Shown here: positions 39,589-40,949 of the stretch, in pieces
Layout of the letters: each line of letters starts with the position of its first letter
Position numbering within the stretch: position 1 is the first letter of the stretch
Assembly: GCA_913060555.1 (NCBI GenBank)
Contig: CAJXRS010000007.1
Span: 1-44,218, forward strand
Reading direction: 5' to 3'
Length of the DNA stretch: 44,218 nt
Source of the DNA: an uncultured Gammaproteobacteria bacterium
GTDB taxonomy: Bacteria > Pseudomonadota > Gammaproteobacteria > Pseudomonadales > Porticoccaceae
Position numbers and translations under genes: made by a program
Notes under the pieces: generated by a model
What the model was told of the DNA's origin: nothing
What the model saw: only the letters and a program-made list of their open reading frames with translations
Database searches by the model: none

Positions 39589-39972
39589 ATGAAGTTCCGT
39601 AGACTCTCTGGATTGTTGACCAGCCTGACGCTGGTGTTGAGCCTGACCCTGGCCACTGCGGTGCAGCCCGCTGCGGCAGCCATGATGGGCACCGCCGAAC
39701 TTGCGCCGGATGCGCGCAGCGAGCAGCTGGAGCGCGTCGATCGTTTCCTGGCCCGGGAGCAGGTGCGCGATCTGCTGCTCGCCCAGGGGGTCGCTCAGGA
39801 GGATGCCCGCGCCCGGGTGGCGGCATTGTCCGACAACGAGCTTGCGATGATCTCCAGACACCTCGATGAACTGCCGGCTGGCGCCGGTGGCCTGGCCCTG
39901 ATCGGCGCCGTGTTCGTGATCCTGGTGATACTCGAAATCGTCGGCGTCACCAACGTCTTCAAGGGGCTTTGA
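39589..39972 (+). CDS. PA2779-family small exported membrane protein
   Basis: 127 aa of unknown function. A signal peptide (MKFRRLSGLLTSLTLVLSL..., probable cleavage at about residues 30-31) is followed by a helical middle region (40-95) and a C-terminal hydrophobic helix (about 102-121, ending VGVTNVFKGL). Just before that helix is LPAGAGG (Gly100-Gly101), preceded by LSDNELAMI (80-88). This resembles the LSxxELxxI...GG pattern of double-glycine leader peptides, although with a longer gap. The stop overlaps the start of a C39-like peptidase (TTGA). Whether it is a substrate is inference. Confidence 0.82.
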   Translation: MKFRRLSGLLTSLTLVLSLTLATAVQPAAAAMMGTAELAPDARSEQLERVDRFLAREQVRDLLLAQGVAQEDARARVAALSDNELAMISRHLDELPAGAGGLALIGAVFVILVILEIVGVTNVFKGL

Positions 39973-39981
39973 GCCCCCTTT
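39961..39981 (+). promoter_or_regulatory. Hairpin at the overlap of the two genes
   Basis: AAGGGGCT-TTG-AGCCCCCTT forms a stem with one unpaired C around the overlapping TTG start and TGA stop. It could hide the peptidase start until ribosomes finish the first gene. Confidence 0.45.
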
Positions 39982-40949
39982 GCCGGGTTTTGGCGGTTGC
40001 CGGGGCCCTGCTGCTCACTGCCTGCAGCAGGGCCCCGGTATTGCCACCGGCCGCCGGCGCCGAGCAGGTCGAACTCGACGCCGTTCCCTTCTTTCCCCAG
40101 CGCGACTATCAGTGCGGGCCCGCGGCACTGGCCACGGTGTTCGGCCATTTGGGCCGTGCGGCCGACCCCGACGCCCTGGTCGACGAGGTGTATCTGCCCG
40201 GCAAGAAGGGCAGCCTGCAGGTCGAACTGAAGGCTGCAGCGCGCAGGCGGGGTCTGGTGCCCTACCCGCTGCCGCCGGATCTGGAGGTGTTGCTTGCGAC
40301 CCTGCGCTCGGGGCATCCCGTGCTGGTCCTGCAGAACCTGGGCATCCGGCGCTGGCCGCAGTGGCATTTCGCGGTGGTGGTCGGGTTCGATGCCGCCGCC
40401 GATACCTTCCTGCTGCGCTCCGGAACCACCAGGCGCCAGGTTCTCGCGGCACGGAAATTCCTCGCCACCTGGGAGCGGGCCGATCGTTGGGGTCTGGTGG
40501 TGCTGTCCCCGGGAACGCTGCCGCCCCGCGCCGAGCGCGATCGCTATCTGCGCGCGGTCACCGACATGGAGGGCATAGCGCCGCCGGCGGCCCTGATCGC
40601 CGCCTTCGACGTCGCCGCCGAGCGCTGGCCCGACAGCCCCTGGGCGCGGGCGGGGCTCGGCAACGCCTACTATGCCGCCGGTAATCGGGCGGCGGCGGAG
40701 GCCCAGTTTGCGGCGCTGTTGCGGCGTCAACCGGAATCGGTGCTCGCCCGCAACAATCTCGCCCAACTCCTTGGCGAGCGCGGCTGCCGGGCGGCCGCGC
40801 TGGCGCTGCTCAATGAAGGATTGGCGAGCCATCCTATCGATGACCGCGAGCGCGCCCAGCTGCAGGTGACCCGCGACGAAGTTGCCGCCATGCCCGTCAG
40901 TGCGGGGAATTGCCCGCCGCCGGCGGCGCGGGCAAAGTCTCCTCATTGA
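39969..40949 (+). CDS. PA2778-family C39-like cysteine peptidase lipoprotein with TPR domain
   Basis: A lipoprotein signal (VAGALLLTAC, Cys19) is followed by a papain-like C39-type domain with catalytic Cys49 in RDYQCGPAALATVFGHL, His in RRWPQWHFAVVVGFD and an Asp in the segment that follows. A tetratricopeptide-like C-terminal half (about 205-300) includes WARAGLGNAYYAAGNRAAAE and VLARNNLAQLLGERG. It starts at a TTG overlapping the previous stop, so it is translationally coupled. It is 326 aa. It probably acts in the periplasm at a membrane; the substrate is unknown. Confidence 0.84.
   Translation: MSPLCRVLAVAGALLLTACSRAPVLPPAAGAEQVELDAVPFFPQRDYQCGPAALATVFGHLGRAADPDALVDEVYLPGKKGSLQVELKAAARRRGLVPYPLPPDLEVLLATLRSGHPVLVLQNLGIRRWPQWHFAVVVGFDAAADTFLLRSGTTRRQVLAARKFLATWERADRWGLVVLSPGTLPPRAERDRYLRAVTDMEGIAPPAALIAAFDVAAERWPDSPWARAGLGNAYYAAGNRAAAEAQFAALLRRQPESVLARNNLAQLLGERGCRAAALALLNEGLASHPIDDRERAQLQVTRDEVAAMPVSAGNCPPPAARAKSPH

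Follow-up and report, generated by a model that had tools for sequence, protein, structure and literature searches.

The PA2779/PA2778 gene pair: a small exported protein and a C39-like lipoprotein peptidase as a candidate substrate and protease

Two adjacent genes in a 44,218-nucleotide stretch of a contig of an uncultured gammaproteobacterium (the window, meaning the whole stretch of DNA analysed) raise the question of whether a peptidase and its own substrate are encoded side by side, and at which bond the substrate would be cut. A first-pass annotation had described a small exported protein with LSDNELAMI (residues 80–88) and LPAGAGG (residues 95–101) directly before its only C-terminal hydrophobic helix, next to a C39-like lipoprotein peptidase, and had proposed cleavage after the double glycine. 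The two proteins and these segments are all found in the sequence (Table 1). The bond proposed here is a different one.

The gene pair and its linkage

The 127-aa protein scores 104.7 bits (3.4e-30) against NCBIfam NF033919 (PA2779_fam), and the 326-aa protein scores 314.3 bits (5.7e-94) against NF033920 (C39_PA2778_fam). Both pass the curated cut-offs, 40 and 150 bits, respectively. The peptidase carries the lipobox LTAC19, a Peptidase_C39_2 match (2.3e-8) and TPRs; C39-like and TPR domains are its only domain content, and no ABC transporter is fused to it. The window pair shares gene order and architecture with the two NCBIfam families (the first is also DUF6627), which are names without an assigned function, as the annotation had said. 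A full-text literature search found no paper assigning a function to PA2779 or PA2778; a transposon insertion in the PA2779–PA2780 intergenic region acts through PA2780/BswR (PMC3985676). The annotation had also called the two genes translationally coupled. The ORFs overlap by 4 bp in the window, but this is atypical: homologous pairs are separated by a median of 49 bp. The TTG start of the 326-aa ORF is the choice of the ORF finder.

Table 1. Positions of the PA2779 and PA2778 genes and of their protein features in the window
Feature	Position	Strand	Remarks
Small exported protein, PA2779 family	39589..39972	+	127 aa; NF033919 104.7 bits; Pfam DUF6627
Putative Sec-type signal peptide, residues 1–31 of PA2779 protein	39589..39681	+	By eye; end approximate
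Helical domain, residues ~44–94 of PA2779 protein	39718..39870	+	G67, R76, LSxxE (S81, E84)
LSDNELAMI, residues 80–88 of PA2779 protein	39826..39852	+	Conserved; amphipathic helix with S/T-x-x-E cap
P96-A97-G98 extended linker of PA2779 protein	39874..39882	+	94/97/98% conserved; proposed recognition or cleavage site
G100-G101 of PA2779 protein	39886..39891	+	Double glycine of the first-pass annotation; Gly101 not conserved
C-terminal hydrophobic helix, residues 102–118 of PA2779 protein	39892..39942	+	From sequence; helix in homologue models
Short conserved tail GVTNVFKGL of PA2779 protein	39943..39969	+	Two Cys around tail in about a fifth of homologues, never one
PA2778-family C39-like cysteine peptidase lipoprotein, C-terminal TPRs	39969..40949	+	326 aa; NF033920 314 bits
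Lipobox Cys19 (LTAC-S) of PA2778 protein	40023..40025	+	Cys in 266/290 homologues
C39-like domain, residues 38–180 of PA2778 protein	40080..40508	+	Peptidase_C39_2 match; 3erv structural match for homologous model
Predicted nucleophile Cys49 of PA2778 protein	40113..40115	+	290/290 PA2779-linked homologues
Predicted catalytic His133 of PA2778 protein	40365..40367	+	290/290 PA2779-linked homologues
TPR region, residues ~210–290 of PA2778 protein	40596..40838	+	Domain match; structural match

The pair occurs widely among Gammaproteobacteria and Betaproteobacteria, Pseudomonas included. In a 299-genome phylum sample, PA2778 was detected above the cut-off in all 36 PA2779-bearing genomes (Fisher p about 1e-45), so that the pairing goes far beyond chance. 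PA2779 was present in 121 of 392 genomes of an order sample and in 89 of 369 genomes of a class sample; the samples overlap in part. According to the 313 distinct PA2779 proteins collected from the genome samples and 80 named-organism loci, a PA2778 gene lies adjacent on the same strand in 301 cases. Among the other 12, one (L096) meets a contig end, and two are in loci with PA2778 on the opposite strand. When 12 genomes were picked for unlinked or extra PA2779 copies, PA2778 was found somewhere in 11 of them; the sole exception, G1009, is a draft assembly in some 200 contigs. The partnership of PA2779 and PA2778 is near certain.

PA2779 copies often outnumber PA2778 copies, the extra ones being in tandem or unlinked to the single PA2778 gene, and several of them belong to a short type whose sequence stops just past the hydrophobic helix. 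Such an excess would be expected if one enzyme served several substrates. Five unlinked short-type paralogues (L334, L335, L346, L350 and L352) consist of Pro-Ala-Gly, the hydrophobic helix and the end of the protein, and a linked pair is present elsewhere in the genome. Another unlinked PA2779 gene (L161:2610-3422) lies beside small envelope lipoprotein and stress-type genes, as judged by eye, which may indicate an envelope-stress context.

In the window, the upstream neighbours on the opposite strand encode a PreP-like M16 peptidase and an alpha/beta hydrolase, and the downstream neighbours a CoA-transferase and an M3 peptidase. All of these are unrelated to the pair, and no fap-like genes are among them. 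No conserved third gene stood out among the neighbours of 162 loci, where crude ORF calling leaves spurious clusters. These contexts bear on the idea that the C-terminal hydrophobic peptide is released into the periplasm as a bacteriocin-like product or a signal. Such a product would suit a C39-like enzyme and a hydrophobic peptide that carries a covarying pair of Cys in roughly one homologue in five. However, no immunity or ABC-exporter gene is linked to the pair, a plasmid search for PA2779 gave no match, and the gene is present in one or few chromosomal copies with broad conservation rather than diversification. Thus, we regard a bacteriocin or signal function as very unlikely.

The Pro-Ala-Gly linker, the double glycine and the tail

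Conservation was calculated with weighting from 225 distinct PA2779 homologues, and the percentages for the Pro-Ala-Gly residues were taken from a 290-row paired set. G67 and R76 are conserved at 100%, and conservation is also strong at S/T81 and E84. The upstream LS/EL residues are thus conserved as the annotation supposed; they read equally well, however, as a helix N-cap box (S/T-x-x-E). Between the amphipathic and hydrophobic helices, P96, A97 and G98 are conserved at 94, 97 and 98%, respectively. The double glycine behaves differently. The Gly101 column is occupied by V/I/A/L, and Gly101 is essentially unique to the window protein, which is otherwise a typical family member. The Gly100 column is Gly in 59% of the homologues. 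Only 85 of 225 homologues have a GG at any point within their last 48 residues, and the GG state switches 30 times on the PA2778 tree. The first-pass annotation had itself named non-conservation of GG among homologues as evidence against its proposal.

In the case of typical C39 leaders, the pattern is L(-12)xxxE(-8)L(-7)xxxxG(-2)G(-1), and it is not found in PA2779. LSxxEL stands 18 residues ahead of Gly98, compared with about 11 in C39 leaders, and the spacing from LSxxEL to the glycine is wrong in every homologue. A canonical double-glycine leader is rejected on the poor conservation of GG together with this spacing. In favour of cleavage of PA2779 by PA2778 at Gly-Gly, in the manner of a C39 leader peptidase, LSxxEL and GG do precede the helix in the window protein, but with Gly101 essentially confined to that one protein we find it hardly credible.

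When Gly98 is taken as P1, P2 is Ala in 97%, P4 is hydrophobic in 90% and P7 is hydrophobic in 100% of the sequences. The C39 domains of LahT and PCAT1 require hydrophobic residues at -4 and -7 (PMC6363468; PMC6959990). The small residue at P2 and the hydrophobic residues at P4 and P7 match these substrate rules, and the match is counted for a cut at Gly98; it is compatible with the cut rather than proof of it, because amphipathic helices generally show such spacing. PA2778 also resembles PCAT1 and LahT in its Cys-His dyad, and PA2779 resembles their substrates in a helix followed by small residues. The differences are on both sides. PA2778 is an exported lipoprotein with no ABC transporter, and the canonical Asp was not found. 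In PA2779, the candidate site precedes a C-terminal helix, the motif is PAG and not GG, and the next hydrophobic position upstream of P7 is -11, not -12.

The tail of PA2779 was examined for cysteine residues. Among the last 40 residues of 313 homologues, no Cys is present in 243 and exactly two are present in 70. In the 225-protein set, all 69 Cys pairs are spaced by ten, and a single Cys occurs in none. At least three changes of the tail Cys state are forced on the tree. It is a reasonable inference that the all-or-none pair forms a disulfide, and hence that the tail is non-cytoplasmic. Such a tail would be at odds with a simple transmembrane anchor having its tail inside.

The sortase signal LPxTG and the GlyGly-CTERM signal of rhombosortase are short small-residue motifs placed just before a C-terminal hydrophobic helix, and they are served by a cysteine or membrane protease. 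PA2779 resembles them in its small-residue motif directly before the hydrophobic helix. In contrast to them, the signal is on one family only, most members have no basic end, and a C39-like lipoprotein is the enzyme. Searched over 30 genomes, a tail profile (A3) detected PA2779 proteins only, the other four matches being weak (E > 0.01). Therefore, the tail belongs to a private pair, and a general sortase-like sorting signal is ruled out over these 30 genomes.

The catalytic dyad and the predicted association

Cys49, His133 and Gly81 are each present in 290 of 290 PA2779-linked PA2778 proteins and Gln44 in 287 of them, although the sequences are very diverse. With the predicted Cys-His dyad invariant, the peptidase looks active wherever PA2779 adjoins it. 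The canonical Asp of C39 peptidases is absent from the expected place, where Ser/Thr151 stands, and Asp141 is common in the homologues. Either Ser/Thr151 or Asp141 may stand in for the triad Asp. A sequence search of the C39 domain against the PDB gave nothing useful, and a profile search was swamped by TPR matches.

AlphaFold2 was applied to two natural in-frame pairs, L185 (peptidase 47% identical) and L238 (Pseudomonas sp. MYb185), with the intervening stop read as glycine; this is a modelling device, and no read-through is claimed. The models of L185 and L238 have mean pLDDT values of 87 and 90, and pTM values of 0.81 and 0.85, respectively. With the small protein unplaced, the pTM formula would give ceilings near 0.73 and 0.75. 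As the observed values exceed these ceilings, the small protein is placed against the peptidase with some confidence, and association of PA2779 with PA2778 is likely. Both models show the Pro-Ala-Gly linker in an extended conformation, with a helix on either side. The fused model matches 3erv, a C39-like peptidase, and TPR proteins.

Mean-field coupling was calculated for 290 PA2779/PA2778 pairs. The top couplings link residues 80–100 of the small protein with the Cys49, Gly81–Ala89 and 120–134 segments of PA2778, and the pairs near these active-site segments include 97–84, 92–83, 100–46 and 81–120. The mature N-terminus of PA2779 couples with the TPR region (for instance 32–247, 35–201 and 47–281). 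In the control, 8 of 144 column shifts gave values as high, and the within-clade shuffle is too coarse to remove phylogeny, one cluster holding 222 of the 290 rows. With these controls, the coupling between the Pro-Ala-Gly region and the active-site columns is only suggestive, and we do not take it as proof of docking.

Short relatives of PA2778 were compared in the genus of genome G286, which is probably Pseudomonas according to its neighbour genes and placement. Full-length PA2778 is present in 18 of 150 genomes, and PA2779 is present in all 18. The short relative occurs alone in 126 of 150 genomes; PA2779 is missing from 125 of these and present in one (G1134). In all 56 short relatives read, Cys49 is lost (Ser or Gly), and His133 is kept in only two. 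The TPR region is missing from 55 of the 56, and L460 is scored as having one. The short relatives (L406–L417, L421–L460 and L180–L183) form one clade. Thus, the dyad loss is one event, or at most two, and counts statistically as a single one. Since the intact and short forms occur together in two genomes (G1040 and G1105), the short one may have arisen as a paralogue. Loss of catalysis after the partner had gone is consistent with the pattern; a partner acting as activator would produce it as well.

The short relatives are widespread and are probably kept for another role. One of them (L180) still has the thrS/infC neighbours seen at intact pairs, and three others (L181–L183) lie beside folD and, by eye, a D-Ala-D-Ala endopeptidase-like gene. 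As these are not fap genes, identity of the short relatives with FapD was set aside. FapD of the Pseudomonas Fap amyloid system is a periplasmic C39 peptidase whose active-site Cys is required (PMC5557850). PA2778 is likened to FapD by description, not by sequence, as an exported C39-like cysteine peptidase that would act in the periplasm. FapD is encoded in a six-gene amyloid operon and has no clear target, whereas PA2778 is a lipoprotein with TPRs, paired with one helical hydrophobic protein.

Proposed processing at the Pro-Ala-Gly linker

The co-occurrence, the invariant Cys-His dyad, the dyad loss in the partnerless relative and the predicted docking indicate a dedicated enzyme–partner pair, and on this point the proposal of a peptidase–partner pair in the envelope, with a candidate site lying between a putative docking helix and the terminal hydrophobic one, is supported. 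What the enzyme does to the partner is a separate matter. PA2779 may stay uncut and be held in the membrane as a partner by which the peptidase is anchored, oriented or activated; the peptidase would then act on another envelope protein. Strict co-occurrence, docking and joint loss are predicted equally by such an arrangement. Some PA2779 homologues keep the site and yet have unusual tails, and a PA2779-family gene is among the candidate strong constitutive promoters of P. stutzeri (PMC10155442); strong expression would suit a structural role. The residue following the lipidated Cys of PA2778 suggests outer-membrane sorting; from the outer membrane, a site next to the membrane-spanning helix of a protein in the inner membrane would be difficult to reach, and this counts against cleavage. 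On the other hand, PA2779 and PA2778 differ in copy number, with additional PA2779 genes unlinked to the pair, and no further conserved gene accompanies the two. Outside the helices, conservation is highest in an extended linker of small residues, which is typical of a scissile site. We therefore consider an uncut PA2779 rather unlikely.

We favour, by a modest degree of belief, a dedicated envelope peptidase and substrate in which PA2779 is cut at or next to Gly98; cleavage at this point is itself judged somewhat likelier to occur than not. The small protein would be exported by Sec, and its mature part would comprise the helical domain, the extended Pro-Ala-Gly linker and the C-terminal hydrophobic helix. 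The lipoprotein peptidase, with its predicted Cys49/His133 dyad and TPRs, would bind the helical domain through putative TPR and cleft surfaces. A cut after Gly98 would leave the soluble domain on one side and the hydrophobic helix with the tail on the other, and would free the domain or the hydrophobic peptide.

A fuller proposal is that a C39-like peptidase has been redeployed as the dedicated processor of a C-terminally anchored envelope protein, cutting Pro-Ala-Gly beside the hydrophobic helix and releasing the helical domain and a hydrophobic peptide with a possible disulfide tail on the periplasmic side. We advance it tentatively, with doubts that outweigh our belief in it. If true, this processing pathway would follow a recognition rule of its own and differ from those of leader peptidases, sortases and rhombosortases. 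If the cleavage is confirmed, C39-type processing would reach beyond the removal of leaders in the cytoplasm and include a site in the periplasm next to a C-terminal membrane helix. A dedicated peptidase and one named conserved bond turn two hypothetical genes into a testable pathway.

At another locus (L184:2631-4660), a C39-like lipoprotein with an N-terminal TPR and intact Cys and His lies beside a 291-aa exported helical protein. The latter has hydrophobic segments and no Pfam match, and the two are possibly a distant analogue of the pair.
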